DNA from: Phytohabitans houttuyneae
GTDB lineage: Bacteria > Actinomycetota > Actinomycetes > Mycobacteriales > Micromonosporaceae
Length of the DNA: 64,000 nucleotides
Assembly (NCBI RefSeq): GCF_011764425.1
Contig: NZ_BLPF01000001.1
Span: forward strand, 1-64,000
Reading direction: 5' to 3'
The notes below the pieces were generated by a model, which was given only the letters and a program-made list of their open reading frames with translations, was not told where the DNA came from and made no database searches. Shown piece after piece: positions 17,107 to 56,745 of the stretch. Numbering within the stretch: the stretch's first letter is position 1; every line of letters starts with the position of its first letter. Made by a program: the position numbers and the translations under genes.

Positions 17107-18585
17107 ATGGGCACGGAGGTGGAGCGTCACGAGTTCAGCCGGGAAGACCGTGCCCGGTACCGGCGCAAGGTGCGGCAGTGCCTGGACGTGTTCGCGGAGA
17201 TGCTGCGCGAGTCCCGGTTCGAGTTCGAGCGGCCGATGACAGGGCTGGAGATCGAGCTCAACCTCGTCGACGAGCAGGCCGAGCCCGCGATGCGCAACGC
17301 CGAGGTCCTCGCCGCGATCGCCGACCCCGACTTCCAGACGGAGCTCGGCCAGTTCAACGTCGAGATCAACGTGGCACCCCGCCGGCTGACCGGCGACGGC
17401 ACCGCCGACTTCGAGCGGCACGTCCGCGACAGTCTCAACGCCGCCGAGGAGAAGGCCCGCACGGTCGGCGCGCACATGGTGATGATCGGCATCCTGCCCA
17501 CCCTCACGCGCGACCACCTCACGCTGGAGTCGCTGTCCGCCAACCCCCGCTACGCCCTGCTCAACGAGCAGATCTTCGCCGCCCGCGGTGAAGACCTCGA
17601 CATCCGCATCGACGGCGTCGACCGGCTGGCCGTCACCGCCGACACGGTCGCGCCGGAGGCGGCGTGCACGAGCACGCAGTTCCACCTGCAGGTGAGCCCG
17701 GGGCAGTTCGCCGCGTACTGGAACGCCGCGCAGTGCATCGCCGGCGTGCAGGTGGCGCTCGGCGCCAACGCGCCCTTCCTCTTCGGCAAGGAGCTGTGGC
17801 GGGAGACCCGCATCCCCCTCTTCGAGCAGGCGACCGACACGAGGTCCGAGGAGATCAAGGCCCAGGGGGTACGCCCGCGGGTGTGGTTCGGCGAGCGCTG
17901 GGTGACCTCGGTCTTCGACCTCTTCGAGGAGAACGTCCGCTACTTCCCCGCCCTCCTGCCCGTCTGCGACGACGACGATCCCGCGCGGACCCTGGCGCAG
18001 GGCGACACCCCGCAGCTCGGTGAGCTTCGCCTGCACAACGGCACGGTCTACCGCTGGAACCGCCCGGTCTACGACGTGGTCCGCGGCCGCCCCCACCTGC
18101 GCGTGGAAAACCGGGTGCTCCCAGCCGGACCCACGGTCGTCGACACGGTGGCCAACGGTGCCTTCTACTTCGGCCTGGTCCGCACGCTGGCCGACTCCGA
18201 CCGTCCACTGTGGTCACAGATGAGCTTCAGCGCCGCCGAGGAAAACTTCCACGCCTGCGCGCGGCACGGCATCACCGCGCAGGTCTTCTGGCCCGGCCTC
18301 GGCTACCTGCCGGTGACGGAGCTGGTGCTGCGGCGGCTGCTGCCCCTCGCCCGCGAGGGCCTGGACGCGTGGGAGGTCGAGCCGGCCGAGCGCGACCGCC
18401 TGCTGACCATCATCGAGCAGCGCTGCCTGACCGGCCGCAACGGCGCGACGTGGCAGGCGGACACGCTGCACCTGCTGGAAGACGACCGCAACATGGCGCG
18501 GCCCGACGCACTGCGCGCGGTGCTGCAGCGCTACATCCCGCTGATGCACGAAAACACCCCGGTCCACGAATGGCCCGTGGAGTAG
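17107..18585 (+). CDS. Glutamate-cysteine ligase family protein (GCS2-like)
   Basis: This 492-residue protein of the carboxylate-amine ligase/GCS2 family has the N-terminal motif TGLEIELNLVD, the central block LGQFNVEINVAP and an ACTSTQFHLQV strand. These are expected for the ATP-dependent formation of a gamma-glutamyl amide. The family includes EgtA of ergothioneine synthesis and YbdK-like ligases. No egtB-E genes are adjacent, so the amine acceptor is uncertain. The terminal TAG stop coincides exactly with the first three bases of a repeat-element end (TAGAGACCTTTCGCGGTC). Confidence 0.82.
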   Translation: MGTEVERHEFSREDRARYRRKVRQCLDVFAEMLRESRFEFERPMTGLEIELNLVDEQAEPAMRNAEVLAAIADPDFQTELGQFNVEINVAPRRLTGDGTADFERHVRDSLNAAEEKARTVGAHMVMIGILPTLTRDHLTLESLSANPRYALLNEQIFAARGEDLDIRIDGVDRLAVTADTVAPEAACTSTQFHLQVSPGQFAAYWNAAQCIAGVQVALGANAPFLFGKELWRETRIPLFEQATDTRSEEIKAQGVRPRVWFGERWVTSVFDLFEENVRYFPALLPVCDDDDPARTLAQGDTPQLGELRLHNGTVYRWNRPVYDVVRGRPHLRVENRVLPAGPTVVDTVANGAFYFGLVRTLADSDRPLWSQMSFSAAEENFHACARHGITAQVFWPGLGYLPVTELVLRRLLPLAREGLDAWEVEPAERDRLLTIIEQRCLTGRNGATWQADTLHLLEDDRNMARPDALRAVLQRYIPLMHENTPVHEWPVE

Positions 18586-18809
18586 AGACCTTTCGCGGTC
18601 TGGTAAATGTCCAACCCAAAACAAGATGTGAGCTGCCGCGATGTCCGCCGTGGTCCGGACCGCTGCTCCCGCGGCCTCACCCTCCGCGGTCGCCCCTGGC
18701 GCAGCTCGACTTTCGGAGTGGGGATTGCCTCCCGCTGCGCCCCACGTCTCCCCGCAACGGTCCGGACCACGAGCGGTCGCACCTCACCCTGACCGCGAAA
18801 ACGTCTAGA
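18583..18809 (+). repeat. Dispersed repeat element with terminal inverted repeats (copy A)
   Basis: The left end TAGAGACCTTTCGCGGTC (18583-18600) is mirrored by GACCGCGAAAACGTCTAGA (18791-18809). Inside is the shared core, from GAGCTGCCGCGATGTCCGC through the palindrome GGTCCGGACC to CCGCGGCCTCACCCTCCGC (about 18628-18690). No protein is encoded. The element starts on the stop codon of the preceding gene. Confidence 0.75.
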
Positions 18810-19054
18810 GACCTTGAGGTCCGTCCACTGTGCAGCGCCATCGCGGGAGGCGTCGACCTTGCCCACGGCGGACCTTCCAAGGGGGTCGCCGCCAGTGGCT
18901 CTCGACCTGGGCGCACGGATGCGCCCACGGACCGGTACCGATCGTTGGGTGTGGCTTGGGCAGCCGCCTGTGACTGTGTCGGGCTCCACGGCCAGCGGCT
19001 CCCACCGACCTGGACCGGCGCCGCCAGCCGCGCGCGACCTCGGGCTCGGCGCCA

Positions 19055-19240
19055 GATCGGGTTGAGGTACACAACCCGCGGAGGGCGAGGCCACAGGAGC
19101 AGGTCAGGGCATCCGCTCGCCACACAACCCGCCGGCCCGGACAACGGTTCCGGCTGCCAACGCCAGCCCACCCACGGTTGTGGTCCGAGCCCAGGGGCAA
19201 CGGTCCGGACCGCCGCGGACCTCGCGGTAGCTCACAATCC
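19055..19240 (-). repeat. Diverged copy of the dispersed repeat
   Basis: Minus-oriented core blocks are visible at 19191-19235, around CGGTCCGGACC and the GCGGTAGCTC complement. A weaker block lies at 19075-19105. The ends are not recognisable. Together with copy A it fills most of the 816-base gap between two convergent genes. Confidence 0.5.
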
Positions 19241-19270
19241 CTCGGATCAAGGCCCTTAGTGCGGTGACCA

Positions 19271-19330
19271 TTGATCAGGGAGTTCGTGGAGCGAATCGCC
19301 GACCGACACGCCCACGAACTCCCTGATCAA
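19271..19330. repeat. Intergenic hairpin repeat, TTGATCAGGG type
   Basis: Perfect 19-base arms, TTGATCAGGGAGTTCGTGG at 19271-19289 and its complement at 19312-19330, enclose a 22-base loop. There is no T-tract, so it is not a classical terminator, but it lies between two convergent genes. A second member lies at 22842-22903. Confidence 0.75.
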
Positions 19331-19401
19331 CAGCCCGAGATCCCGGAGCGGTGCCTGCACCCGGCGACGACGACGGTGGTACAGGCCGGCGCACTAGGAG
19401 G

Positions 19402-20931
19402 TCAGGACGGAGTCGTCCACGGGGTGATGACGGTGGCGCCGGCCGGCGGGAGCGGGGTCAGGCGGAGCTCGCGGCCCGCGGCGAGGTCGTCGGCCGTGCA
19501 GATGTAGCGCTCGGTCACCATGAACTCCCACCGCGGATCGCGCGTGCACACCCGCGGGCCCATGCGCTCGCCGTGCACGACGAGGGCGGTGAGCGCCGGC
19601 CACGCCTCCTGCTGCACGTCGAGCACCACGGGGCTGCCGGCTGTGTAGCGGTCCAGGATGGCCATCACCGCGGGCATGTCGGGCACGTGCTCGGGCAGCC
19701 TGCGCATCGCTGGCGCGCCGCTGCCCACGCCGAGTGCGCCGATCACCACGGCCGCGACCAGCCAGGCGGCCACCGGGCGCCCCGCCCAGACCGCGGCCAG
19801 CGCGGGCAGGCGGCGAACGGCGGGAGAGGTCGCGGCGGCGGCCACCGCGATCCAGAGCAGCAGCAGCGGTACCGCGCGGCTGAACTGCCCGACGTAGGTG
19901 AAGCGGAGGTCGTCGACGCCGCGTGTCACGTACACGGCGAAGAGGAGCGTGGCCACCGCGGCGGCGCACACGCCCGCGGTGAGGAAGCGGCGCGGCGGCC
20001 CGGCGGGCAGGTGGCGGGTGAGGGCCGCGGCGGCGGCGAAGAGTAGCGTGGCGATCACAGCGGCCAGCGGGGTGGGCGAGGCGTAGAAGCTCAGCATGTA
20101 GCGCGCGATGTCGGCGGGGCCGACGCCACCGCCACCGCCACCGTTGTAGGCGAAGTAGCGCGCGAACTCGCCCGGCCAGTGCAGCAGCAGGTTGAGCACG
20201 ATCGGCAGCGCGAACAGCCCGCACACCGCGGCCGCCACGGCCACCGCGGTGCGCACCTCGCGAAATGCCTCGCGGCGGCCGGTGCGCAGTGCGGCCGCGA
20301 CGGCGGCGCCGGCGATCACCGGGACGAAGAGCAGGAAGCTCACGTGGCCGTGGATCAGCAGGCCCGACGCGAGCGCGAGTACCGGCAGGTGGGCGACGCG
20401 GCCGGCGGCCACCGACGCGGCGGCGATGAGCAGGAGCAGGAACGGCGCGACGTAGAGGTCGGGCATCCACGCCGACGCGAGGATCGCGGGTTGCGTGGCG
20501 AAGTACAGGATCCCGGCCGCGCCGCACAGGGCGGTCGCGGCCCGCGAGGCGGTCCAGCTGTGGATGACGGCGAGGGCGAGGCCGAGGAGTACCGAGTTGA
20601 GCGCGAGCAGCGCCACCCACTGCCCGTTCCACGGGGTGGGCACCACGCCGAGCAGGTCGTGGAGGAGCCACTCGCCGAAGGCCTGCACGTAGAAGAAGGC
20701 CGGGCCGGGGTGGTGGAAGCCGAGCCGCGAGTAGTTGCCGACCAGCAGCTCGAAGTGCTTCGCGTCGGCCGTGATGATCGAGTTGGCGGCGAAGTCACCG
20801 CGCTCGTACACGACGCGGCCGAACGTGACCGGGTTGCGCCACAGCAGCAGGCCGAAGAGAGCGCCCGCCGCGACCGCGAACACGGCGGGATCGAGGGTGA
20901 CCCGCCGTGCCGCAACGCCTTGCTGTGTCAC
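19402..20931 (-). CDS. Polytopic membrane protein, possible GT-C type glycosyltransferase
   Basis: This 509-residue protein has roughly ten to twelve hydrophobic segments. The first extracytoplasmic loop reads YERGDFAANSI and then GFHHPGPAFFYVQAFGEW. The PGP-aromatic motif after an acidic loop is seen in GT39/ArnT-like lipid-linked glycosyltransferases. The C-terminal 100 residues are soluble and would lie outside the membrane. The start is GTG at 20931. It lies 45 bases downstream of the citrate synthase stop on the same strand, without obvious functional connection. No catalytic assignment is certain. Confidence 0.62.
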   Translation of the reverse strand: MTQQGVAARRVTLDPAVFAVAAGALFGLLLWRNPVTFGRVVYERGDFAANSIITADAKHFELLVGNYSRLGFHHPGPAFFYVQAFGEWLLHDLLGVVPTPWNGQWVALLALNSVLLGLALAVIHSWTASRAATALCGAAGILYFATQPAILASAWMPDLYVAPFLLLLIAAASVAAGRVAHLPVLALASGLLIHGHVSFLLFVPVIAGAAVAAALRTGRREAFREVRTAVAVAAAVCGLFALPIVLNLLLHWPGEFARYFAYNGGGGGGVGPADIARYMLSFYASPTPLAAVIATLLFAAAAALTRHLPAGPPRRFLTAGVCAAAVATLLFAVYVTRGVDDLRFTYVGQFSRAVPLLLLWIAVAAAATSPAVRRLPALAAVWAGRPVAAWLVAAVVIGALGVGSGAPAMRRLPEHVPDMPAVMAILDRYTAGSPVVLDVQQEAWPALTALVVHGERMGPRVCTRDPRWEFMVTERYICTADDLAAGRELRLTPLPPAGATVITPWTTPS

Positions 20932-20976
20932 GTATCCGCCCCGTTGTCGACCGACCGGAGCGGATCGTACCTTGAG

Positions 20977-22260
<1,284 letters not shown>

Positions 22261-22424
22261 GGGGTGCCTCGCTTCGCCCGCAGATTCTTCGTGAGTGGCT
22301 TTACTCAACCGTAATCCCTCCGGGGTTGATAGGCCTGAGCGCGCCCGCCCGTGAGGAATGCGTCACTAACCCTTGTCTGTTTTGTTCAAGCCACCTACTC
22401 CGGCGGCCTCCTAGCGTGGTGGTC

Positions 22425-22820
22425 ATGGCACCTCGTGTAGACGCGATCGGCCTGGTAGTGGCCGACATGACCCGTTCCCTGTCCTTCTACCGCCGCCTCG
22501 GTCTTGTCTTTCCCGACGGGGCTGAGTCCGAACCTCACGTCGAGGCCCAGCTGGCCGGTGGCCTGCGCCTGCTTCTTGACACGGTGGAAACGGTCCGCTC
22601 GTTCGATCCCGAGTGGCAGCCACCGTCGGCGGGTGGGCCGCGGGCCGCGCTGGCGTTCGCCTGCGACAGCCCGGCCGAGGTCGACAAGGTCTACGCGGAC
22701 CTGGTGGCCGCCGGCTTCGAAGGGCACAAGGAGCCGTGGGACGCGTTCTGGGGCCAGCGGTACGCAATGGTCCACGACCCCGACGGCAACGGCGTAGACC
22801 TCTTCGCCCGCTTGCCTTAG
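22425..22820 (+). CDS. VOC family (glyoxalase/bleomycin-resistance-like) protein
   Basis: This 131-residue protein has the paired beta-alpha-beta-beta-beta modules of the vicinal oxygen chelate fold. The N-terminal IGLVVADMTRSLSFYRRLGL and C-terminal YAMVHDPDGNGVDLFA are the conserved ends. Members are metal-dependent lyases, dioxygenases or drug-sequestering proteins, and the sequence does not say which. The ATG at 22425 is chosen because upstream in-frame sequence is non-conserved. A hairpin repeat follows the stop by about 20 bases. Confidence 0.85.
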   Translation: MAPRVDAIGLVVADMTRSLSFYRRLGLVFPDGAESEPHVEAQLAGGLRLLLDTVETVRSFDPEWQPPSAGGPRAALAFACDSPAEVDKVYADLVAAGFEGHKEPWDAFWGQRYAMVHDPDGNGVDLFARLP

Positions 22821-22841
22821 CCGGCTGCCCGCTCGGGGGTT

Positions 22842-22903
22842 GTTGATCAGGGAGTTGGTGGGCGTGTCTGTCGGCGTGTCCACCCACGAAGTCCCTGATC
22901 AAC
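22842..22903. repeat. Intergenic hairpin repeat, TTGATCAGGG type
   Basis: A 62-base inverted repeat has arms GTTGATCAGGGA(G)TT at 22842 and its near complement ending GATCAAC at 22903, with three mismatches in 23 positions. It is the second copy of the element at 19271-19330 and sits between a stop codon and the next gene's promoter region. Confidence 0.7.
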
Positions 22904-22960
22904 GCCGGCCCCGGGAGGTAGTGACGCGCGGATGTCGGGGGTCGCCGGTAGCCTCGGCGT

Positions 22961-23644
22961 GTGTACGAGGAGCGGCCTTCCCGGCTGCCCGGCGCCTATG
23001 TGTGGCGGCGCACCGCCGTCGGTGAGCCGCGCGCCGGGCGCGTGCTGCCGGACGGCTGCATGGACCTGCTGTGGTGGCGCGGCGACCTGGTGGTGGCCGG
23101 CCCCGACACCGCGGCCTACGAGTCCCGCCTCGACACCGGCGAGACGATCGTCGGCCTCCGCTTCGCGCCCGGGACGGCACCGGCCGCGCTCGGCGTGCCG
23201 GCCGACGAGCTCCGCGACTCGCGCGTGCGGCTGTCCGCGCTGTGGCCCGGCCGCCTGGCACGCGAGGCCGCCGAGCGCGTGGCCGCCGCACCCGAGCGCG
23301 CCCTGGAAGACATCGCCGCCACGCGACTGGCGGCCGCCGGCGGCCCCGCCCGCGAGGTCTCGGCGGTCGTGTCACTGCTGCGCGCCGGCACGCCGGTCGC
23401 CACGGTCGCGGACGAGGTCGGGCTCAGCGAGCGGCAGCTGCACCGCCGGTCACTGTCCGCGTTCGGCTACGGGCCGAAGACGCTGGCCCGCATCCTCCGG
23501 CTGGAGCGGGCGCTCGCGCTGGCCCGGTCCGGCACGCCGCTGGCCAGGGTGGCGGTGGAGTCCGGCTACGCCGACCAGGCCCACCTGTCCCGGGATGCCC
23601 GCGCGCTCGGCGGGGCGCCGATGGGCGAGCTCATCCGCCCTTGA
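22961..23644 (+). CDS. AraC-type transcriptional regulator with DUF6597-like N-terminus
   Basis: This is a 227-residue regulator. The N-terminal half (LPDGCMDLLWWRGDLVVAGPD and AGRVLP context) matches the sensing domain common in actinobacterial AraC proteins. The C-terminal half has two helix-turn-helix motifs, VATVADEVGLSERQLHRR and LARVAVESGYADQAHLSRD. The start is GTG. No obvious target is adjacent: the next gene lies on the opposite strand beyond a repeat. The ligand is unknown. Confidence 0.85.
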   Translation: MYEERPSRLPGAYVWRRTAVGEPRAGRVLPDGCMDLLWWRGDLVVAGPDTAAYESRLDTGETIVGLRFAPGTAPAALGVPADELRDSRVRLSALWPGRLAREAAERVAAAPERALEDIAATRLAAAGGPAREVSAVVSLLRAGTPVATVADEVGLSERQLHRRSLSAFGYGPKTLARILRLERALALARSGTPLARVAVESGYADQAHLSRDARALGGAPMGELIRP

Positions 23645-23656
23645 CCTGCGCCGTGC

Positions 23657-23780
23657 CGCACAACCCCGAACCAGATGCGAGCTACCGCGATGTCCGCCGT
23701 GGTCGGGACCGTCGCTCCCGCGGCCTCACCCTCCGCGGTCGGCTCGACTTTCGGAGTATGGATAGCTTTCCCTACGACAG
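23657..23780 (+). repeat. Dispersed repeat copy after the AraC-type gene
   Basis: The core runs from CGAGCTACCGCGATGTCCGC at about 23678 to CACCCTCCGCGGTC near 23740. The palindrome is altered to GGTCGGGACC. A tail beginning CTCGACTTTCGGAGT (23744) is shared with copy A and with 55557. The copy begins within 20 bases of the upstream stop codon. The rest of the gap to 23882 shows nothing recognisable. Confidence 0.65.
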
Positions 23781-23882
23781 CCTCCGGTGTCCTCCCAGCT
23801 CACGGTGTCCGCGCCGGCGTGGCCAGCTCCCCGGTGCACCATCCCGGACCCGCAGGACCGACGCACCCCGTCCACGACCCTT

Positions 23883-25046
23883 CTACGTGCCCCGCAGCGG
23901 ACCCCTCCGGCCCACGGCCCACACAGCCAGCGCGAAACAACTCACCACCACACCCGCGGCCGACACCGCCCGCCAGCCGCCGGCGGACCACAACACCGTC
24001 GCGGCGGCGGAGCCGAGCGCGCCACCGGCGAAATTGCCGGTGATGAACGCGGTGTTCAGCCGGCTCCGGGCCTCGTGCGACACGGCGAAGAGGCGGGTCT
24101 GGTTGAGGATTCCCTGCGCCTGGATGGCGGCGTCGAGCACGACCACCACCACGATCACCAGCACCACCGAACGCCCCGCGAACAGCGCCACCACCCACGC
24201 ACCCAGCGCCAGGCCCCACGCCGCGCCGGTCGCCGGCAGTGACCAGCCGCGGTCGTGCAGGGCGCCGGCGCGCTGTGCGGCGAGCGCGCCGGCGATGCCG
24301 GCCAGGCCGAAGAGGCCGATGACGGAGACCGGGTAGCCGAAGGGCGGGCCGCTGAGCAGGAACGTCAGCGCCGTCCAGAACATCGTCAGCGCCGCGAACC
24401 CGCTCGCCCCCAGCGCCATCGTCCACCGCACGGTGCGGTCGCGCAGCACCACCGTGCCGACCGACGCGATCAGCCGGTGGTACGGCATCCGCGCCTTGCC
24501 CGGCAGCGACGGGATCGCCCGGTACAGCAGGAACGCGAACAGCACGGACAGCGCCGCGGCCAGGGCGAAGACCGCCCGCCACCCCGCGACGTCGGCGATG
24601 AGACCGCTGACGGTACGGGACGCGAGGATCCCGGTCAGCAGCCCCGAGACGACCGCGCCCACCACCCGGCCGCGGTCGCCGTCGCCGGCCAGGTCCCCGG
24701 CGAGCGGGGTGAGGATCTGGCCGGAGACGGTGGTGACGCCGAGTGCGGTGATCGCCACCAGCAGCACGGCGAATGTGGGCGCGAGCGCGCACAGCACCAG
24801 CGCGGCCGCGGCGCACAGCATCATCACCGGCAAGAAGCGGCGGCGGTCGAGCACGTCGCCGAGCGGTACGAGCAACAGGATGCCCGCGGCGTAGCCGACC
24901 TGGGTCGCGGTGACCAGCCAGCCGGCGGTCGCGGTGGAGGCGTTCAGGTCGTCCGCGATGAAGTCGAGGAGCGGCTGCGCCCAGTACAGGTTGCCGACCG
25001 CCACGCCGGCGGCCACCGCGAACAGGAATGTCAGCCGCCGGGTCAC
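23883..25046 (-). CDS. MFS transporter
   Basis: This 387-residue protein has about twelve membrane segments. LVPLGDVLDRRRFLPVMML after the second helix is the major facilitator A-type motif, and NLYWAQPLLDFIADDL in the first helix-loop region is typical of YgaY/YfkF-like drug exporters. It starts with GTG at 25046. The DUF2255 gene ends 34 bases upstream on the same strand, so they may form one transcript. The substrate is unknown; a small-molecule efflux role is a family-level guess. Confidence 0.85.
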   Translation of the reverse strand: MTRRLTFLFAVAAGVAVGNLYWAQPLLDFIADDLNASTATAGWLVTATQVGYAAGILLLVPLGDVLDRRRFLPVMMLCAAAALVLCALAPTFAVLLVAITALGVTTVSGQILTPLAGDLAGDGDRGRVVGAVVSGLLTGILASRTVSGLIADVAGWRAVFALAAALSVLFAFLLYRAIPSLPGKARMPYHRLIASVGTVVLRDRTVRWTMALGASGFAALTMFWTALTFLLSGPPFGYPVSVIGLFGLAGIAGALAAQRAGALHDRGWSLPATGAAWGLALGAWVVALFAGRSVVLVIVVVVVLDAAIQAQGILNQTRLFAVSHEARSRLNTAFITGNFAGGALGSAAATVLWSAGGWRAVSAAGVVVSCFALAVWAVGRRGPLRGT

Positions 25047-25080
25047 GGTCGTTGATCTTGCCAGGTGGCGGAGCGCTCAG

Positions 25081-25458: not shown

Positions 25459-25589
25459 CGCAGTTCCCCCTCACGGGCGCGCAGCGCCCCTTGATGCCTC
25501 TTCCAGCGATACCCAGCCAGGACCCGTTCCAGCGGCGGCGTGAGACCGAACACCCCGCCAAGGGCTCCGTCACCAAAGCCCCAAAGCAA

Positions 25590-26030
25590 GATCCCAATGC
25601 AAATCCGGGCTACCGCGATGTCCGCGGTGGTCCGGACCGTTGCTCCCGCGGCCTCACCCTCCGCGGTGGCCAACCCCACCCAGCGCCCCGGCCGCCACTG
25701 GCCGCTCCCCCGAGGCGTAATCCTGTTCACCCACGTCGACCGTGGCCCGCTGCGCGAACCATGATCACGCAGAGGGACGGCACGCGGAGAGCGGGCCCGA
25801 GAGCTTTTTGAGGTCGAGGTGGGCGAATCCGTCCACAACGGAACGGACCGGTCGCCCTTGCCGACGCCGATCTGGGCGACCGCACGATCTCAACGGCAAC
25901 CCGGAACTTGAAGCTCGCCCACCGCGGAGGGTGAGGCCGCGGGAACGCACCCCAAGAAACGCTCCGCTGCGCTCCACGTTTCCCCCGGGGCCCCGCGCGA
26001 CGGTCCGGACCACTGAAACGGTCTCTAGAG
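25590..26030. repeat. Two facing copies of the dispersed repeat
   Basis: A plus-oriented core at about 25606-25675 faces a minus-oriented core at about 25911-26020. The second copy carries an extra GC-rich module (25935-26002) between the palindrome and the CCGCGGCC block. The pair ends at CTAG (26027-26030), shared with the next element. The 230 bases between the cores contain no recognisable gene. Confidence 0.65.
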
Positions 26031-26459
26031 ACCTTTCGCGGTCAGGGTGAGCCTTCGCAGAGTCCGACCCGAGTTAGCTGTGAGCTGCCGCTATGCCGCG
26101 GGTGCCGCCTCACCCTCCGCGGTCGCCCAGCTCAACCCAGGAGCCCGCTCCGGCAGATCTTGGCAAGTTAGCGTCGAAATAACGCGCCAACTCACCAAGA
26201 TCTCGACTGCGGCGCCGCATCCGTCCGACGGATGGTCACAGACGGTAGTAAAGCCCTCCAAGACGGCGCCGCATCGTGGGCGGGCTCGGCGCCGCCGTCC
26301 GGCTGTCCATGGAGCAGGCCCTTGGGTTGAGCCTGGCGACCGCGCAGGGTGAGGCCGCGGGAGCAACGGTCCGGACCACCGCGGACATCGCGGCAGCTCA
26401 CATCTCCTTCGGTTTGAACTTTCCAGAAGGGCTTCACCCTGACCGCGAAAGGTCTCTAG
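26027..26459. repeat. MITE-like element with about 29-base terminal inverted repeats
   Basis: The left end (26027-26055) begins CTAGAGACCTTTCGCGGTCA and the right end (26430-26459) is its complement with one extra base. Both terminate in CTAG. Inside are a short core variant (26080-26130), a 49-base hairpin with AGATCTTGG arms (26155-26203) and a full minus-oriented core (about 26325-26415). No transposase is encoded. The right end supplies the TAG stop of the ferredoxin gene. Confidence 0.78.
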
Positions 26460-34791: not shown

Positions 34792-34897
34792 CACCCGATC
34801 ACCATATGGCGTTGACCTGCGCCGCAAGGTCACCGGGCAGCGGTATCCGCGGATCTCACAGAATTTTGCCCCGGTCCGCGCCAGCCGCTGACCGTAT

Positions 34898-34959
34898 GCG
34901 CGGGCCCCGGGGGAAACGTGGAGCGCAGCGGAGCGTTTTCTTTGGGTGCTTTCCCGCGG
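34898..34959 (+). repeat. GC-rich repeat module (solo copy)
   Basis: The 62-base module GCGCGGGCCCCGGGGGAAAC... ending TTTCCCGCGG is nearly identical to modules inside dispersed-repeat copies at 25935-26002 (minus) and 50456-50519 (plus). Here it stands without the core repeat, in the 256-base gap between the TPR gene and the response-regulator operon. The remainder of the gap shows only GC-rich sequence. Confidence 0.65.
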
Positions 34960-35047
34960 GCACCGCTGCGGCCGGCGGCTCGCTCGGCGCTCGCCGAAAC
35001 CCCGGCCTCCGCTGCCGGGTCCGCGCGACAAGCCCACCCGGCCGCGC

Positions 35048-43659: not shown

Positions 43660-43745
43660 TTTTGATGATGTGAGCTACCGCGACGTCCGCGGTGGTCCGG
43701 ACCGTTGCTCCCGCGGCCTCGCCCTCCGCGGTCGCCCAGCTCACC
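43660..43745 (+). repeat. Dispersed repeat copy after the ApbE-like gene
   Basis: The core begins GATGTGAGCTACCGCGACGT at about 43668, includes GGTCCGGACC and ends CCTCCGCGGTCGCC near 43738. It starts 20 bases after the stop codon. The TIR is missing on this side. Confidence 0.72.
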
Positions 43746-43875: not shown

Positions 43876-43950
43876 ATCTGAGCTGCGGCGGCCGTCCGCA
43901 GTCGTCCGGACCGTTGCTTCGCGGCCTCACCTTCCGCGCTGGGCGCGGTT
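43876..43950 (+). repeat. Shortened copy of the dispersed repeat
   Basis: A degenerate core has CTGAGCTGCGGCGGCCGTCC, the altered palindrome CGTCCGGACCG and CGGCCTCACCTTCCGCG. It lies 130 bases from the preceding copy in the same orientation. Confidence 0.55.
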
Positions 43951-43967: not shown

Positions 43968-44017
43968 AGATCGTGGACGTCTACTGCCCCTACAGGGGCA
44001 GTAGACGTCCACGATCT
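43968..44017. repeat. Perfect 24-base-arm hairpin
   Basis: The 24 bases at 43968-43991, beginning AGATCGTGGACGTCTACTGC, are exactly complementary to 43994-44017 with only two bases between. There is no T-tract. It is embedded between copies of the dispersed repeat. Confidence 0.85.
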
Positions 44018-44084
44018 GCTCTGTACAGGCCTTTGTCGACGCCGATCAAGGAGCCAGTGTGGTCCAGACCGTTGTCTACCGCCC

Positions 44085-44225
44085 TTGGGGTTGAGCCTGG
44101 CGACCGCGCAGGGTGAGGCCGCGGGAGCAACGGTCCGGACCACGACGCACATCGCGGCAGCTCACATCTCGTTCGGATTGAGGTTTCCAGATAGGGCTCA
44201 CCCTGCACGGCGAAAGGGTCTCTAG
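44085..44225 (-). repeat. Dispersed repeat copy ending in a CTAG terminal repeat
   Basis: The minus-oriented core (about 44100-44170) closely matches that at 26325-26415. It is followed by GGGCTCACCCTGCACGGCGA and GGTCTCTAG, the terminal inverted repeat with a two-base variation. The end lies 72 bases before the stop of the SWIM gene. Confidence 0.7.
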
Positions 44226-44296
44226 ACACGAGTGGCTCTCGACCTGGGCGCGCGAGTGCGCCCACCGACGTGTGGCGCGGCGCGGGCCGGCAGGCG

Positions 44297-49430: not shown

Positions 49431-49500
49431 CGCACAAGTCTGCCAGCCCGATGCGGTGAGCCGGCGGAACGGCGCGGCGCCACTCGGTAGGTTGGGTGGC

Positions 49501-50271
49501 ATGACACAACCCTCCGTGAGCGTCGGTGACGGACAGGCGATGCCGCTGCTCGGCTTCGGCACGTGGCAGCTGCCCGGCAAGCAGGCGTACGAGCCGGTGC
49601 GGGTGGCCTTGGAGACCGGCTACCGGCACCTGGACACGGCCACGATGTACCGCAACGAGAGTGAGGTCGGCCGGGCGCTGCGGGACAGCGGGGTCGCGCG
49701 CGGGGAGGTGTTCATCACCACGAAGCTGCCGGCCGAGCGGGCGGGGCGCGAGCGGGAGACGATCGAGGCCAGCCTCAAGGCGCTCGGCATCGACCAGCTG
49801 GACCTGTGGCTCGTGCACTGGCCGCCGAACGGGTCGGCGAGGCCTCAGACGTGGCGCGAGTTCGTGGCGGCGCGCGAGGCGGGCCTCACTCGCGCGATCG
49901 GGGTGAGCAACTACAGCATCCCTCAGATCGACGACCTCACCCAGGCGACGGGCGTGACGCCGTCGGTGAACCAGATCCCGTACAGCCCGGCGCTGCACGA
50001 CGCCAAGCTGCTGGCCGAGCACCGCGAGCGTGGGGTGGCGCTGGAGGGGTACAGCCCGTTTCGCCGCAGCGACCTGCGAGAGCCGGTGTTCGCGCAGGTG
50101 GCGGCCGCGCACGGGGTGACGCCGACCCAGGTCATCCTGCGGTGGCACCTGCAGCACGAGATCGTGGTCATCCCGAAGTCGGCGACGCCTGAGAGGATCC
50201 GCGCGAACTTCGACGTGTACGGCTTCACGCTGACGGACGAGGAGATGTCCCGCATAGACGCGGTCCGCTGA
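49501..50271 (+). CDS. Aldo-keto reductase
   Basis: This 256-residue TIM-barrel NADPH-dependent reductase has the catalytic tetrad D45 and Y50 (HLDTATMY), K75 (ITTKLP) and H106 (LVHWPP). The cofactor-binding end is VIPKSATPERIRANF. It most resembles the AKR5/2,5-diketo-gluconate reductase group. The ATG at 49501 matches the family start. The dispersed repeat and a pectate lyase remnant follow. The physiological carbonyl substrate is unknown. Confidence 0.92.
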   Translation: MTQPSVSVGDGQAMPLLGFGTWQLPGKQAYEPVRVALETGYRHLDTATMYRNESEVGRALRDSGVARGEVFITTKLPAERAGRERETIEASLKALGIDQLDLWLVHWPPNGSARPQTWREFVAAREAGLTRAIGVSNYSIPQIDDLTQATGVTPSVNQIPYSPALHDAKLLAEHRERGVALEGYSPFRRSDLREPVFAQVAAAHGVTPTQVILRWHLQHEIVVIPKSATPERIRANFDVYGFTLTDEEMSRIDAVR

Positions 50272-50397
50272 CGGCTCGTCGCATGCGCCCGGCGGATTGC
50301 CTGTTCGCCGGCTCAGCACTCACCTGCCCGTCGGTGGCCGTGGCGGAAGCCTCGATGAATGGGTTACCAGCAGTTCGTTCCGGGTCGAGTCGGTGAA

Positions 50398-50530
50398 ACA
50401 TCCAACCCAAAACGAGATGTGAGCTGCCGCGATGTCCGCCGTGGTCCGGACCGTTGCGCGGGGCCATGGGGAAACGTGGAGCGCAGCGGAGCGTTTTCTT
50501 GGGGTGCGTTCCCGCGGCCTCACCCCGGCC
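50398..50530 (+). repeat. Dispersed repeat copy with inserted GC-rich module
   Basis: It begins with the conserved lead ATCCAACCCAAAACGAGATG. The core follows with GGTCCGGACCG at about 50444-50454, then the 64-base GC-rich module (50456-50519), then CCGCGGCCTCACC. Its end abuts or lies within the start of the pectate lyase remnant. Confidence 0.7.
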
Positions 50531-50533
50531 GGG

Positions 50534-50827
50534 GGCCTCGTCGGCTGGGCGACCCAGGGTGGCGGCACCACCGGCGGCGGCAGCGCGGCGGCCACGACCG
50601 TGACCAGCTCGTCGGCGCTGTCCAGCGCAGTCTCCGGCACGACCGCCCGGGTGGTACGCGTCTCCGGCACGATCTCCTGCTCCGGCATGATCTCGGTCGG
50701 CTCGAACAAGACAATCGTCGGCAGCGGCCAGGCGGGTGGCAGCGTGGCGAGCATCCCGTACTCGTACTCGCTGGAGACCGCGAGCGCGGGGAAGGCGTCG
50801 GTCATGGCCGGCGCGGGCGCCCGCTGA
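50534..50827 (+). pseudogene. Pectate lyase remnant with internal deletion
   Basis: The frame reads GLVGWATQGGGTTGGG, a low-complexity Thr/Ser stretch, then ARVVRVSGTISCSGMISVGS and NKTIVGSGQ. This is the N-terminal strand set of a family 1-type pectate lyase. It then jumps to IPYSYSLETASAGKASVMAG and AGAR, the usual C-terminus. The whole central parallel beta-helix with the Ca-binding and catalytic residues is missing. There is no start codon of its own: the upstream frame runs into the dispersed repeat. The gene is inactive. Confidence 0.75.
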
Positions 50828-50966
50828 CGCGGTAACCCAAAGGGGGAGGTGGCCGGGAGCGCGGCCGCCTCCCCCGCGCGCGTGCACGGTCCCGGGCTCC
50901 ACCGCTGGGCGGAAGGTCGTAGGCTATCCGGGTTTACGTTCTGTACCCACTGGCCTAGGAAGCTCG

Positions 50967-53879
50967 ATGGTCTTGCCGCGCGCACTGACGCCGCCAGCCG
51001 CTCCGGACACGCCCGACCCCGCCCCGCAGGCGGGCGGTCGCGTCCCGGCGCTGCGCCGGCTGGACCGCATCCTGCCCGCCGTGGTGCTCGTGGCGATCGC
51101 CGCGTTCGCCCTGATCGGCATCGGGTCGCCGCTGCTGGGCCAGGCCACGTTCGCGGCGACCGACGAGATGGTGACCACCTCGCCGTACAGCGAGGTGCCC
51201 GAGTTCGCCGGCGTGCGGCCCACCAACAACTACCTCGACGACACGTGGGACTCGGCCCTGCCGAACACGCTGCTTTTCGGCGAGGAGCTGCGCGACGGCA
51301 ACATCGCCCCGTGGAACCCGTACACGGCCGGCGGCGTGCCACTCGGCGCCACGCCCAACTACGGGCTCGGCTCCCCGCTGACGGTGCCGTTCTACGCGCT
51401 GCCCGGCTGGTTCGCGCCCGGCATCGTCAAGCTGCTGGAGATCGTCGTCGCGATCGGCGGCATGTACCTCTTCCTGCGCCGCCTCCGCCTCGGCGCGGCG
51501 TCGTCGCTCCTCGGCGGCCTGGTCTTCGCGAGCAGCGCGTTCATGGTGGTCTGGACCGGGTGGCCGCAGACCCGGGTGGCGGCGTTCATCCCGGCGGTCT
51601 TCTGGGCGGTCGAGCTGATCGTGCAGCGCAGGCGCGTGCGCGACGCGGCGGTGCTCGCGCTCGCGATGGCCGCCATGATCTTCGGCGGCTTCCCCGCCGT
51701 CACCGGGTACACGGTCGCCACCGGCGCCATCTACCTCGCCGTCCGCCTCTTCGCCACGTACGGGCGGGAGTGGCGCCGGATCCTCGGCGGGTTCGCCCTG
51801 GCCGCCGGCGGGGTGGCGGGCGGAGTGCTGCTGACCGCGGTGCAGCTGCTGCCGTGGGTCGCGTTCATGAGCAGTGCGTACGTGGAGGGTCGCGCCCAGC
51901 AACCGGACGCCCACCTGTCGATGGCGAGCCTCGTCACCTCGATCGCGCCGTGGGCGCTCGGCTCCACCAACCCGTACGGCGACGTGTACTGGTACCTGCC
52001 GGTCAACCTCGTCGAGTCGATGTCGTACCTCGGCGCCGCCGCGCTGGTGCTCGTGGTGGCCGCGGTCGCGATGGCGCGGCGGGGGCGGGCCGCGCTGCCA
52101 CAGGGCGCGTGGCTCTTCATGGTCGTCGCCACGGGCGGCTGGCTGGTGCTGATCTACGGCGGCGGCTTCCCGCTCAAGGTGGCGCAGAGCCTGCCGTACC
52201 TGTTCTCGGACAACTTCGTCGGCCGGTCCCGCTGCGTGCTGGGCTTCCTGCTGGCCGTGCTGGCCGCGGTCGGGCTGGAGCTGCTGCTGCGCCGGCGGGA
52301 GGCGGTGCGCGCGCGGCGTTGGGAGCTCGCCTGGGCGCTGCTCGTCGTCGGTGGCGTCGGGGTCGCCGCTCTGGCCGCGCTGCGGGGTGCCCGCCGCGCC
52401 GCGTACCTGGCCGACCGCGCGGCCGCCGGCGACGGCTGGCCGCGCACGCACGAGCTGACCCGCGAGTTCGCGGTGGGTGCCGTGCTCGTGCTGCTCGCCG
52501 CGGCCTGCGCCGCCGCACTCTGGTGGCAGGGGCGGCGCGAGGGCGGCGGGAGGCTGCGCCTCGTCGCGGCCGGCCTGCTGCCGCTGCTCGTCGCGGGGCA
52601 GGCGCTCGCGTTCGTCGTGCCGTACTGGCCGCGCTCCGACCGCGACACGTTCTTCCCGATGACCGACGCGCACGACTACCTCGCCTCGCACCTGGGACCC
52701 GACCGCTTCGCCGGCATGTACCGGTCGATGACCCGCAGCGTGGAGTCGGCGTTCAGGCTGCGCTCCGCGACCGGCCACGCGTTCGTCGACCGGCGGTACG
52801 GCGAGCTCATCCGCTCCCCCGCCGACCGGGTCAACTTCTCCTCCACCAACGTCGCCGTCGGCGGCGGGCTGACCGCGATCACCAGCCCCACCCTCGACCG
52901 CATGTCCGTGCGCTACGGCATCACCGCTCTTGACGCCCCCGTGCCCGGCACCGCCCGCCCCGCGCCGACGACCACCGGCCTCACGACCCTCCAGCCAGGC
53001 GCCTCGGTGACCGTGCCCGTGCCCGGCACGGGCCCGATCCGGGCCGTGGAGCTGACGCCGATGGAGAGCCGGGAGGAGTGGGAGGCGACCGATCGCATCG
53101 AGGCCGTCGTCACCGACGAGAGCGGTGCCGAGGTGGCCCGCACCAGCCGCCGCCTCGGGCGCACCACGGCCGGGCAGCCGCTGTACATCCCGCTCGCGGC
53201 CGAAAGCGCACCCGCCGGGGCCCGGCTCGGTGTCACGATCACCGTCCGTGCCGCGCACGCCGTCCCGGTGCAGGCCGCCGGCGAGCAGGCGGCGGTGGGC
53301 GCTGTCGGTACGGCGGACGACGGGCTCAAGCTGGCGTTCGTCGGCGCCGCGGCGATCTACGAGCGGACGCGGGCACTCCCGCGCGTGCGGTGGGCCGGCA
53401 CGGCCGTCGTCGAGCCCGACTCGACGCGCCGGCTCGACCTGCTCAAGGGCGGCACGCTCACCAACGACCAGGTGGTGCTGGAGCAGCAGCCCTCCGCGCC
53501 GGGCGGCGGCACGGCCGACGTGCGGATCACCGAGGACGGCACCGACACCACCGAGGTGTCCGTGACCGCGCGCGGCTCCGGGTACCTCGTGCTCGCCGAC
53601 CCGATCCAGTCCGGCTGGACCGCCACCGTCGACGGCGCCCCGGCCACGATGCTCAAGGCCGACCACGCATTCGTGGCGGTCGCGGTGCCGGACGGCACGC
53701 ACACGGTGCGGTTCCGGTACACGACCCCCGCCGGCGGCGCGGGCGGATGGCTCAGCCTCGCGGCCGCGCTCGGCATCGCCGGCGTACTCGTGGCGGGCGT
53801 GGTGCGGGACCGCCGCCGCCGAACGGGCGAGGCGCCATTAGGCTCGTCAGGTCCCGTTCTCCCACCGTCTGCGAGTTGA
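50967..53879 (+). CDS. YfhO-family membrane protein
   Basis: This 970-residue protein has an N-terminal helix, a luminal loop with APWNPYTAGGVPLGATPNYG and about ten further membrane segments to residue 560. A large C-terminal extracytoplasmic region follows, ending with a final helix (GWLSLAAALGIAGVLVAGVV). Family members in Gram-positives are implicated in glycosylation of cell-wall polymers or lipids. The ATG at 50967 is preceded by AGGA. It is followed 8 bases later by the flippase-like gene. The same pair recurs on the other strand at 59543-64000. Confidence 0.85.
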   Translation: MVLPRALTPPAAPDTPDPAPQAGGRVPALRRLDRILPAVVLVAIAAFALIGIGSPLLGQATFAATDEMVTTSPYSEVPEFAGVRPTNNYLDDTWDSALPNTLLFGEELRDGNIAPWNPYTAGGVPLGATPNYGLGSPLTVPFYALPGWFAPGIVKLLEIVVAIGGMYLFLRRLRLGAASSLLGGLVFASSAFMVVWTGWPQTRVAAFIPAVFWAVELIVQRRRVRDAAVLALAMAAMIFGGFPAVTGYTVATGAIYLAVRLFATYGREWRRILGGFALAAGGVAGGVLLTAVQLLPWVAFMSSAYVEGRAQQPDAHLSMASLVTSIAPWALGSTNPYGDVYWYLPVNLVESMSYLGAAALVLVVAAVAMARRGRAALPQGAWLFMVVATGGWLVLIYGGGFPLKVAQSLPYLFSDNFVGRSRCVLGFLLAVLAAVGLELLLRRREAVRARRWELAWALLVVGGVGVAALAALRGARRAAYLADRAAAGDGWPRTHELTREFAVGAVLVLLAAACAAALWWQGRREGGGRLRLVAAGLLPLLVAGQALAFVVPYWPRSDRDTFFPMTDAHDYLASHLGPDRFAGMYRSMTRSVESAFRLRSATGHAFVDRRYGELIRSPADRVNFSSTNVAVGGGLTAITSPTLDRMSVRYGITALDAPVPGTARPAPTTTGLTTLQPGASVTVPVPGTGPIRAVELTPMESREEWEATDRIEAVVTDESGAEVARTSRRLGRTTAGQPLYIPLAAESAPAGARLGVTITVRAAHAVPVQAAGEQAAVGAVGTADDGLKLAFVGAAAIYERTRALPRVRWAGTAVVEPDSTRRLDLLKGGTLTNDQVVLEQQPSAPGGGTADVRITEDGTDTTEVSVTARGSGYLVLADPIQSGWTATVDGAPATMLKADHAFVAVAVPDGTHTVRFRYTTPAGGAGGWLSLAAALGIAGVLVAGVVRDRRRRTGEAPLGSSGPVLPPSAS

Positions 53880-53887
53880 GCCAGCCG

Positions 53888-54895
53888 ATGACCGTGCGCG
53901 ACGACACCACCGAAAGCCCCGCCGTGCCGGCGCCTCCCGCGCCGCCGACCCGGCGCGCGCGGGCCCGCCGGTGGATCCGCGCCGGTGTCCTCGTGGTCAT
54001 GGTCGTGTCGGCGGTCACCGTGCTGGCCGCCAACCGCGAGGCGGTGCTCGACGCGCTCACCGAGATCTCCCCCGGCTACGTCGCGGCCGCACTCCCCGGC
54101 GCCATCGCCGCCATGCTCGCGGCCCTCATCGTGTGGCGCTCGCTCCTGGCCGACCTCGGCTCGCCCATCGCCTGGCGCGACGCCGCGCGGGTGTTCTACC
54201 TGAGCCAGCTCGGCAAGTACGTGCCGGGCACCGTGTGGTCGATGGTCGCCCAGGTCGAGCTGAGCCGCGACCTGCGCATCCCCCGCCGCACCAGCCTGGC
54301 CGTGGGCGTGCTGGCCATCGCCGTCTCGGTCACCGTGGGCCTGACCGTGGGCTCGGCGATCCTGCTGGTCGCGGCGCCGGGCGTGGCCGAGCACTTCCGG
54401 TACTTCCTCTTCGCCGTGCCCCTCCTGCTGACCGTGCTGCACCCCGCCGTGCTCACCCGCCTGCTCAACCTGGCCTACCGCCTGCTCCGCCGCCAACCCT
54501 TGCCCAAGGCACCAAGCTGGGGCGGCATGCTCCGCGCGGCCGGCGCACAGCTGCTGGTCTGGATGTGCCTGGGCCTGCACATCTGGCCGTTCCTGGTCGG
54601 CATCGGCGCCGACCCGCTGGAGTCCCTCCCGGTAGCGATCGGCGGCTACGCCCTCGCCTACAGCCTCGGCCAACTCGCCGTAGGCCTGCCCGCCGGCGCC
54701 GGCGTCCGCGAGGCCGCCCTGGTGCTAGCCTTCGCCCCCCTCCTACCAGGCGGCGCCGCGGCCGCACTGGTGGTCGCGCTGATCTCGCGCGTCACCCTCA
54801 TCGTCGTGGACGTCCTGATGGCCGGCCTCCAACGCCTGATCGCCCGCCGCGCCCCCGCGACCCCACCGCCCGCCGAGGAGCCCGAGGCGGCGTAG
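53888..54895 (+). CDS. Lysylphosphatidylglycerol synthase TM-region/UPF0104 family membrane protein
   Basis: This 335-residue protein starts with a Pro/Ala-rich, basic cytoplasmic segment and has about seven or eight membrane helices. The blocks FYLSQLGKYVPGTVWSMVAQ and GQLAVGLPAGAGVREAALV are the family signature found in the flippase domain of MprF and in stand-alone UPF0104 proteins. It probably moves a lipid or lipid-linked sugar. It is translationally close to the YfhO-like gene. A paralogue lies at 59543-60510. Confidence 0.87.
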   Translation: MTVRDDTTESPAVPAPPAPPTRRARARRWIRAGVLVVMVVSAVTVLAANREAVLDALTEISPGYVAAALPGAIAAMLAALIVWRSLLADLGSPIAWRDAARVFYLSQLGKYVPGTVWSMVAQVELSRDLRIPRRTSLAVGVLAIAVSVTVGLTVGSAILLVAAPGVAEHFRYFLFAVPLLLTVLHPAVLTRLLNLAYRLLRRQPLPKAPSWGGMLRAAGAQLLVWMCLGLHIWPFLVGIGADPLESLPVAIGGYALAYSLGQLAVGLPAGAGVREAALVLAFAPLLPGGAAAALVVALISRVTLIVVDVLMAGLQRLIARRAPATPPPAEEPEAA

Positions 54896-54948
54896 CGGCG
54901 CGGTTACGGTCCGCAGCCGGGCCCGCTCTTCGAGAGCTGGCGCCCTCC

Positions 54949-55030
54949 ACAACAGATTCGAGCTACCGCGACGCCCGTCGTGGTCCGGACCGTTGCTCCC
55001 GCGGCCTCACCCTCCGCGCTGGTCAAGCCC
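54949..55030 (+). repeat. Dispersed repeat copy after the flippase-like gene
   Basis: The core runs from GATTCGAGCTACCGCGACGC (about 54956) through GGTCCGGACC to CGGCCTCACCCTCCGCG (about 55018). It begins some 55 bases after the stop codon. Confidence 0.68.
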
Positions 55031-55516
55031 CAGCAGCTCGCCGCTTCACCGCGGGCAAGGGCCGCCGCCTCGGCCTTAACCACCCGCCCGCGCTCCCGCC
55101 GCCCACGCACCCGTCGCCGCGCACGCCCGCTGCACGGTCGCGCCACTCGCCCGCTGCACGGTCGCCTCGCCCGCCGCCCGCCGGCGCACGCGCACGCGCA
55201 CGCCCGTCCGCCCGCCCGCCGCATGGTCGCCTCACTCGCCGCCCGCCAGCGCACGCGCACGCCGCCGCGCGGTTGCCCGTGCTCGCCGCCCCCGTCCACC
55301 GCTGCGCACACCCGCACTCGCCGCGCGCACGCCCGGACGCATCCCGCTGCGCGCGTCCGCGCCCTGCCGTCGCCGCAGCCCGTGACCATGGTCTCTGCTG
55401 CACTGATCATGGTTTGTGTACCAGTTTTCGGTGATTTGTTCCCGCAGAAATCATGATCGCGCGTAGCGCAAAGGTGCGGGTCCGTCCACAGTGCAGGAAC
55501 TGCGAGAAGCCAAGCA
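55031..55516. other. Low-complexity GC-rich gap without recognisable genes
   Basis: From 55080 to 55380 the sequence repeats short CGCAC, CCCGCTGCACGGTCGC and GCGCACGCG motifs. These would encode only Arg/Ala/His/Pro strings in any frame. No start with a ribosome binding site or codon pattern of a real gene is visible. The AT-richer stretch at 55390-55460 could hold a promoter but no gene follows it. Confidence 0.6.
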
Positions 55517-56022
55517 CGATGCGAGATCTTGGTGAGTTATCGCGCCATATCGCCGCCTCGACTTTCGGAGTTTCGTCGTCTGGAGTCCTTCCGCGGTCGG
55601 GGTGAGCTTTCTTGGAGTCCGACTCGATTTAGCTGTGAGCCGCCGCTGTGCCCGCGGTTGGCGCCTCACCCTCCGCGGTCGTCCGGCTCAGCCCAGGAGG
55701 CTGCTCCGGCAGATCTTGGCAAGTTAGCGTCGAAATGGCGGGCAAACTCACCAAGATCGTGAAGCGCACACCGCCGCACCTGATCGACAGTCACCGACCG
55801 CGACGAGGGTGCACTCGCGCACTGCCGCCCGAAGATCTGCAGAAGCACGGGTGGGGGAAGATCGGACCGGTGAATCTTGCATCTTGCCTGGTCAATGCCT
55901 TGCCCCGTAAAGCCGGCCGCCGGGGCGCGGACCGTGAGCGGGGAAGACCCCGGAAGCTCTCGCACGGCAAGTGATCCCAAACGCCGAAAAGTCGAGGCCG
56001 CTAACTCACCAAGATCTGCCGG
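55517..56022. repeat. Composite element with inverted GATCTTGGTGAGTT ends
   Basis: GAGATCTTGGTGAGTT (about 55520) with a nearby CCTCGACTTTCGG is mirrored at about 55982-56019 by its complement. The arms are roughly 35-40 bases, with an indel. Inside is a copy of the short core variant (about 55575-55700) and an AGATCTTGG hairpin (55711-55757). About 170 bases match the left half of the element at 26027-26459. No protein is encoded. Confidence 0.6.
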
Positions 56023-56186
56023 AGTCGCCGTGGAGGGTGCGGTCGCGGGACACGAAACGCGCCGGGCTCGCCGCCGGATCCAGCCACGGGTTCAGCTTCG
56101 CCACCCCACGGAGAACAAGGTTGCGGCCCTGGACAACCCCGCCCAGACCAAGGAAGCCGCCAGACACGGCCGGTGATGGCGTCAGG

Positions 56187-56660
56187 CGACCGGGACTGTG
56201 GGCGCACCGGTGCGCCCAGCTTGAGAGGCACTCGCAGCACGACACCTTCGGAGGCAGGCGAAGCCGCCCTCGGGGTGAGCTTGCCGACCGCGTGGACGGT
56301 GAAGCCGCGCGGGAGCAACGGTCGGTCGGTGAAGACCCCAGGCGCACCGATGCGCCCAGGTCGAAAGGCACTCGCGGCACGACACCTTCCGAGCCAGGCG
56401 AAGCCCTCGGGTGAGCTTGCCAACGGCGGACGGTGAAAGCTTCAGGCGACCGGGACCCTGGGCGCACCGGTGCGCCCAGCTTGAGAGGCACTCGCCGCGC
56501 GACACCTGCCTAGCCAGGCGAAGCCGCCCCGGGTGAGGTGGCCGACCGCGGACGGTGAGGCCGCGCGCAGCAGTGGCGGACGGTGAAGGCGACGGGACCG
56601 CGCACCGTGCGCTCGGGTTGAGGGGCGCTCGCGGCGCGACACCCTGCGGAGCCAAGGCGT
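56187..56660 (+). repeat. Four-unit tandem repeat of about 120-140 bases
   Basis: Each unit contains an 18-base palindrome, GGGCGCACCGGTGCGCCC or a variant, at about 56200, 56340, 56460 and 56600. It is followed by a CTTGAGAGGCACTCGC-like block, ACGACACCTTC, AGCCAGGCGAAGCC and a GTGAGCTTGCCGACCGCGGA-like block. Related palindromes lie at 18907-18927 and 44240-44261. No gene is encoded. Confidence 0.7.
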
Positions 56661-56745
56661 CCCTTGGGTGAGCTTGGCCACCGCGGAGGGTGAGGCCGCG
56701 GGAGCAACGGTCTGGACCACGACGGACGTCGCGGTAGCTCGAAGT
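56660..56745 (-). repeat. Dispersed repeat copy next to the methyltransferase stop
   Basis: The minus-oriented core runs from GGGTGAGCTTGGCCACCGCG through an altered palindrome GGTCTGGACC to GCGGTAGCTCG (about 56738). It ends about 20 bases before the stop of the gene at 56761. Confidence 0.68.

Follow-up and report, generated by a model that had tools for sequence, protein, structure and literature searches.

A REP-like, probably mobile repeat at gene 3' ends in Phytohabitans genomes that lack RAYT

Results

Contig C1 of Phytohabitans houttuyneae (Micromonosporaceae), hereafter the host, opens with the 64-kb stretch examined here, which as a whole is called the window. Its intergenic gaps carry copies of a short dispersed repeat family, which we label type A, with a conserved unit of about 60 bp (GRGCTACCGCGAYGTCCGYSGTGGTCCGGACCGYTGCTCCCGCGGCCTCACCCTCCGCGG) and flanks that are mutually unrelated and unalignable. 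An earlier note, made from the letters of the window alone, had reported at least a dozen copies and two short variants, all intergenic and nearly all at the 3' end of a gene. We scanned the window with a sequence-only model trained on 60 copies; a few of these come from the window itself and match by construction. The scan returned eight full copies of 74-80 bits, one degenerate full copy and two left-half copies of about 40 bits. On the plus strand, full cores lie at 18624..18696 (75.7 bits; 44 nt past the TAG stop of the upstream gene and behind the outer extension TAGAGACCTTTCGCGGTC), 23674..23745 (74.4 bits; stop codon 34 nt before), 25602..25680 (78.6 bits), 43667..43745 (78.4 bits; stop codon 32 nt before) and 54954..55031 (80.4 bits; TAG stop 64 nt before). 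On the minus strand they are found at 26326..26405 (79 bits), where the outer extension CTAGAGACCTTTCGCGGTCAGGGTGA starts at the stop codon, at 44090..44169 (75.1 bits), facing the copy at 43667, and at 56668..56744 (79.5 bits; TGA stop 20 nt before), facing the copy at 54954. The degenerate copy is at 43876..43949 (plus strand, 44.4 bits). At 19192..19238 (minus strand, 39.6 bits) a left half survives beside a decayed right half; the copy at 50415..50526 (plus strand, 41.8 and 13.3 bits) has an insert of about 54 bp between its halves; and the split copy at 25912..26014 (minus strand, 26.1 and 12.6 bits), whose left part is missing, carries about 54 bp between GTTGC and TCCCGCGG. A palindrome fragment at 18754..18776 (minus strand, 13.9 bits) forms the right arm of a small inverted unit (18583-18814) that also holds the copy at 18624. 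The module of about 54 bp (GGGGAAACGTGGAGCGCAGCGGAGCGTTTTC...) lies at 50457-50510, 25946-26000 and 34897-34982; it splits several cores and occurs alone too.

All 12 places reported earlier, and both variants, hold related sequence, but three of these places have just a half or a split copy, a fourth has a degenerate one, and the variants near 26080 and 55631 are weak relatives only (26078..26136, plus strand, 16.7 bits; 55636..55692, plus strand, 15.3 bits). The claims about placement held up well: nine of the ten scored window copies follow a same-strand gene, the sole exception being that at 25602, and overlap with a predicted gene is limited to one of the 178 copies in the wider sample described below. 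The genome-wide search that had been proposed revealed that the repeat is present elsewhere in the genome, the core palindrome GGTCCGGACC occurring 377 times per strand in the 11.34-Mb host sequence as compared with 23 for a reversed-pattern control. With up to one mismatch the window itself holds 20 occurrences of this palindrome against 9.0 expected, a number reached in none of 100 shuffles. Across 854 kb of the host, 73 sites matched at least 40 of the 60 consensus bases, and among the matches listed most copies agree with the consensus at 52-59 of 60 bases (match thresholds vary among our scans, at 27, 29 or 30 of 38). In an alignment of 62 host copies and 102 from relatives, which left out copies below 50/60 or near a sequence end, core columns 0-58 are near-invariant save for about ten two-state positions. 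The outer end of the core reads GRGCTRCC, and beyond the core partial conservation is confined to an A/T-rich, AGATTT-like stretch before it and a C-rich tail after it.

A 32-bp pattern, searched on both strands with at most two mismatches, matched all six Phytohabitans genomes (host, 303, with no control hits; P. suffuscus, G002, 335; P. flavus, G003, 424; G005, 88; G004, 23; G001, 1) and none of 35 genomes outside the genus. The single match in G001 stands beside 27 model matches among the candidates scored, and this genome seems to carry diverged copies. The sequence-only model, for which up to 30 candidates per genome were scored, matched 43 of 150 Micromonosporaceae genomes at E <=0.001, six within the genus and 37 outside it, several of the latter through a single weak match. 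Five genomes of genus g60 had one or two matches each, the best of them nearly full length. In genera g7, g18, g19, g41 and g46 each genome examined had 6-27 matches with other flanks, mostly to the central part of the repeat (model positions of about 18-79, and mainly 22-52 in g19). A tighter pattern matched one of 396 genomes across the phylum, that of the host alone. A literature search found no paper whose title concerns this repeat.

Placement relative to genes was assessed in 178 copies from 854 kb of the host and 80 loci of its relatives, with genes predicted by a codon-score finder and not taken from annotation. Convergent genes flank 117 copies, while 28 are tandem-sense, 15 tandem-antisense, three divergent and one within a gene; the other 14, at sequence ends, were dropped. 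A same-strand gene precedes 145 of the 163 placeable copies, a fraction that overstates orientation since a convergent gap counts as same-strand for either orientation, and the core lies a median of about 50 nt from the stop codon. Measured against intergenic length, convergent placement is in excess both in the host (21/29, 28% expected, p ~1e-6) and in P. flavus (19/31, 22% expected, p ~2e-6). The sense bias in tandem regions is weak (28 versus 15, p = 0.066), and some copies lie in promoter or divergent regions. All 38 pairs of neighbouring copies separated by less than 1 kb face inward, as do the multi-copy islands of three contiguous stretches (15/15, one being an overlapping pair). Among solo copies, 24 of 29 convergent (p = 0.0005) and 9 of 11 tandem-sense ones have the outer end on the side closer to the gene. 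Stop codons before cores are TAG in 65/144 cases versus 255/969 predicted genes, and CTAG in 20/65 versus 170/1750; within 100 nt of copies, CTAG occurs upstream in 77/221 and downstream in 23/221. Although CTAG stops are enriched, most copies lie behind other stops, which argues for a preference at most. A replication-strand bias was considered and rejected, as 400 kb of P. flavus contained 17 plus and 14 minus copies.

Comparison with P. suffuscus revealed that copies turn over between species. The host interval C1:0-233 kb is syntenic with P. suffuscus, and within it 11 host copies follow a gene whose orthologue was identified (best hit of at least 60% identity), three of them with a P. suffuscus counterpart and eight without; in the reverse direction, 3 of 8 P. 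suffuscus copies have a host counterpart. Near dnaA, where 251 reciprocal best hits have a median identity of 92%, there are five host and eight P. suffuscus copies per 400 kb, and none are in common (0/3 host and 0/7 P. suffuscus copies with orthologues, the orthologue for one of the three host copies, at 388171 of that stretch, lying in a non-syntenic place). Over both regions, 14 host copies could be tested, of which three are matched by a counterpart and 11 are not. At equal threshold the host has four copies in the dnaA region versus 29 in C1:0-464 kb, a contrast that is smaller in P. suffuscus (8 near dnaA versus 19). Flanks and distances are not the same at the three shared sites, one of which is half decayed. 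Four more gene pairs, chosen because both species had something there, hold core-like sequence in both with largely unalignable flanks, and in two of these one half of the host copy is lost or interrupted.

The same comparison of orthologous intergenic regions, which the earlier note had recommended, uncovered empty sites. Host gaps at 95919-97101 and 78470-79125 measure 1182 and 655 bp, where P. suffuscus has 34 and 100, and a divergent region of P. suffuscus (C1:9632074-9634173) spans 2099 bp with two inward copies near its edges, where the host has only 162. At host C1:4353692-4353803 a single copy lies between two CTAG stops in about 110 bp, whereas the convergent genes of P. suffuscus overlap there by 4 bp (CTAA). 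The host site corresponds to an insertion with a 4-bp CTAG duplication that left both genes intact.

Four typed copies gave folding z-scores of -0.25, -2.11, -2.13 and -2.73, three of the four folding better than most shuffles, and the first helix was 86% paired versus 36-40% for slid versions of the whole structure. Two pairs of the helix at columns 9-35 are broken, in 37/60 and 35/60 sequences, and no compensatory changes were found among the 60 copies, a test that was informative for the first helix only. Rfam returned no match in the window at gathering score and none at E <=1 for 54900-56800. A conserved RNA is therefore not supported, despite some folding excess. No T-run follows the helices in the sequence, so the GC hairpin plus U-tract of an intrinsic terminator is not seen, and by eye several copies lie downstream of a terminator-like hairpin. 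A coding reading of the core was likewise rejected, as variable positions have no codon period and, by eye, half of the copies have ACG in place of the apparent ATG and no start-to-stop frame is kept.

The Y1_Tnp domain (PF01797) was found in none of the six Phytohabitans genomes, while the control genomes were positive in 5 of 14. This absence excludes the RAYT route in its known form, and mobilisation by RAYT or IS200-IS605 was rejected. In 2.3 Mb of sampled sequence we also inspected what lies between inward ends, over 29 gaps measuring 0.7-6 kb (two of them entered twice). Of these, 22 contain no predicted gene, and the remainder hold ordinary-looking genes (not scanned for families), apart from two with an IS4-type transposase inserted inside the core, so that this sample gives no support to the core as terminal repeat of an autonomous transposon. 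This IS4-family element (PF13006 and PF01609; locus L089:2026-3279, minus strand) has ends CAATGCCACTCA that by eye are unlike the core, and its insertion point is exactly the core palindrome, with 10 bp duplicated (junction GGTCCGGACC / CAATGCC...GGCATTG / GGTCCGGACC). Derivatives of about 170 bp also lie at the core palindrome in P. suffuscus, and both junctions are found at C1:9497603/9497777 and 9545025/9545199 of P. suffuscus and at C1:3297103/3298680 of P. flavus. Since the element lies in the core palindrome, the repeat is itself an insertion target. A second repeat, type B, consists of GGTCCGCGCCAGCTGCGGACCGTATGCTCCCGCGGGCACCGC and a long imperfect hairpin, has GACCGTWTGCTCCCGCGG in common with type A and occupies the same kind of gap. 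It gave 32 matches in the sample, about half of them without a same-orientation type A copy within 2 kb upstream, and there is one orthologous 3' end with type A in P. suffuscus but type B in the host.

Discussion

The reading that we favour, with moderate confidence, is that type A is a non-autonomous mobile repeat resembling the repetitive extragenic palindromes (REPs) and moved by an enzyme other than RAYT. In several Phytohabitans species a unit of about 60-110 bp would have multiplied to hundreds of copies, with turnover between species. Copies would enter intergenic gaps, mostly directly behind a stop codon and especially where two genes converge, since insertion would be tolerated there; convergent 3' gaps may be the ones filled because insertions there are harmless. 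With the outer end nearest the stop codon, other repeats would pile up on the inner side and produce islands bounded by inward-facing copies. We infer that copies move as short units, and the mobilising enzyme presumably acts in trans and is not of the HuH/RAYT type. A preference for CTAG stop codons as targets is hinted at by outer segments that start at CTAG and by the single clean CTAG duplication. Of the two interpretations in the earlier note, a mobile or REP-like element has been strengthened by the dispersed, non-coding and genome-wide occurrence and the empty orthologous sites; of the outcomes that the note had named as refuting, absence elsewhere in the genome did not occur, and the window gave no match to an Rfam family. 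A conserved 3'-end regulatory structure was not shown, given the lack of compensatory changes, the copies downstream of a terminator-like hairpin and the weak tandem sense bias, but the polarity of copies that read in the sense of the preceding gene leaves room for it.

Type A is like the GTAG- and CGTC-tagged palindromes of REPs and of bacterial interspersed mosaic elements (BIMEs) in being high-copy, short, palindrome-bearing, extragenic and 3' of genes with a convergent bias. In the species diagrammed in one account of REPs, convergent REPs adjoin the 3' end of the upstream gene while the distance to the downstream gene varies (PMC3733652). Actinobacteria do not figure in the phylum lists of that paper, and the word is missing from its main text (PMC3733652). 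REPs are described as stem-loops of 20-40 bp (PMC3733652), whereas type A spans 60-80 nt with an invariant core of about 60 bp and a stem that shows no covariation. It has no fixed GTAG or CGTC tag at its end, the outer end being GRGCTRCC; on its other strand GTAG lies beyond the palindrome, with GCAG in 18% of 62 host copies. The GTAG-type RAYT/Y1 transposase, which may be lost in some species, is absent from the six Phytohabitans genomes. The repeat has the behaviour of a REP but is not shown to be one, and it departs from REPs in size, tag and RAYT.

Several points weigh against a mobile, REP-like repeat. Neither a mobilising enzyme nor a transposase gene with core ends was found in the approximately 2.3 Mb sampled, as distinct from whole genomes. 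The clean CTAG duplication occurs at one site only, and a compact site at P. suffuscus C1:3567357-3567462 (104 bp versus 14) has no visible duplication. Many insertions are whole islands rather than single cores, and the turnover evidence is between species, movement within a strain not having been seen. The three shared sites may be independent or ancient insertions, because their flanks and distances differ. The same-strand count, as noted, is inflated by convergent gaps, and polarity is lost in solo antisense and divergent copies, whose outer end is nearer the gene in 4/9 (13/20 for all non-convergent solos). Since polarity is tied to the sense of the preceding gene, it speaks for a target or function at 3' ends rather than for a pure edge-of-island rule; published REPs show a like polarity, so polarity alone is no proof of a terminator.

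A wider proposal, which we put forward tentatively and regard as rather doubtful, is that there is a Micromonosporaceae-wide class of repeats in which an inner recognition core (approximately GTCCGYSGTGGTCCGGACCGTYTGCTCCCGC) is fused to differing outer and inner modules in each genus (types A, B and others). Their copying would fall to a non-HuH machinery, so far undescribed, with gene 3' ends as its target; there the types would replace each other.

Correia and NEMIS are types of bacterial miniature inverted-repeat transposable element (MITE), and type A is like such elements in being non-coding, in having hundreds of copies and inward-ended islands, and in one clean CTAG duplication. Single type A copies differ from them in having no constant terminal inverted repeat; many copies are solo, outer ends that resemble terminal inverted repeats are rare and species-specific, the duplication is not general, and no partner transposase was found in the sampled sequence. 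The IS4-family element has some sites in common with type A but is inserted into it. The core could occupy a subterminal position in a larger MITE, the outer segments from CTAG being its true ends; a CTAG-targeting DDE transposase would move this MITE, and most copies would have lost those ends. Inward pairs would then be its two ends, and the unit at window 26029-26455, with inverted AGACCTTTCGCGGTCAGGGTGA ends flanked by CTAG, the upstream excess of CTAG and the clean CTAG...CTAG unit at host C1:4353692-4353803 are consistent with it. We nevertheless think this unlikely: the outer segment, TAG followed by AGACCTTTCGCGGTCAGGGTGAG in the host and other sequences in P. flavus and P. suffuscus, is species-specific while the core is invariant; it is rare at up to two mismatches (host 21, P. 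suffuscus 3, P. flavus 0, G005 0); and some single-core units fit between stop codons with few outer bases.

Also unlikely is that the core is a functional 3'-end element (a transcription terminator, a stabiliser of mRNA 3' ends or a protein-binding insulator) that was spread and kept by selection. The placement about 50 nt behind same-strand genes, the polarity confined to sense positions, a near-invariant core amid diverging flanks, the exchange of type A for type B at an orthologous 3' end, the recurrence of the central part in other genera and the folding excess all point towards such a function. The absence of compensatory changes and of a T-run, the copies that follow a terminator-like hairpin, the 28:15 ratio in tandem regions with some copies in promoter or divergent regions, and the 11 of 14 copies with no counterpart at the orthologous gene argue against it, and published REPs are likewise placed 3' of genes (PMC3733652).

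Short palindromes are common in GC-rich DNA, and the host has a GC content of 73% (464 kb measured), but a chance origin is refuted by the control counts (23 versus 377 for the palindrome; none versus 303 for the 32-bp pattern) and by the absence of the 32-bp pattern from 35 genomes outside the genus.

Repeats resembling REPs are familiar from genomes in which a RAYT transposase can account for them. Type A is a high-copy actinobacterial family with REP-like genomic habits in six genomes without RAYT, so that its mover can now be sought, and its use as a target by an IS4-family element adds a further layer to its ecology. If the 3' placement influences transcript ends in convergent pairs, this would concern hundreds of genes per genome.

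Other repeats

Further repeats were observed beside type A. In P. suffuscus, loci L343 (~13554-13770) and L352 (~15001-15230) carry a separate MITE with inverted ends GGGCGTGTTTCATAAGGG, situated at CTAG stops with CTAG on both sides. Window 43969-44016 is a hairpin of about 48 bp (GATCGTGG...CCACGATC) with 54 other matches in the sampled genomes. The stems of these hairpins vary, many with matching changes on both arms (the search pattern fixed both outer arms), and they form a candidate hairpin-conserving repeat family. Another dispersed palindrome, TTGATCAGGGAGTT...AACTCCCTGATCAA, occurs as an inverted pair of hairpins at 19271-19349 and 22824-22902. Direct repeats at 75-bp spacing lie at 14953-15402 upstream of a predicted gene, in a spacer of 383 bp versus 93 in P. 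suffuscus, and a CGCCCG-rich direct repeat with two 65-bp copies lies at 55143-55272, within the largest island of the window.

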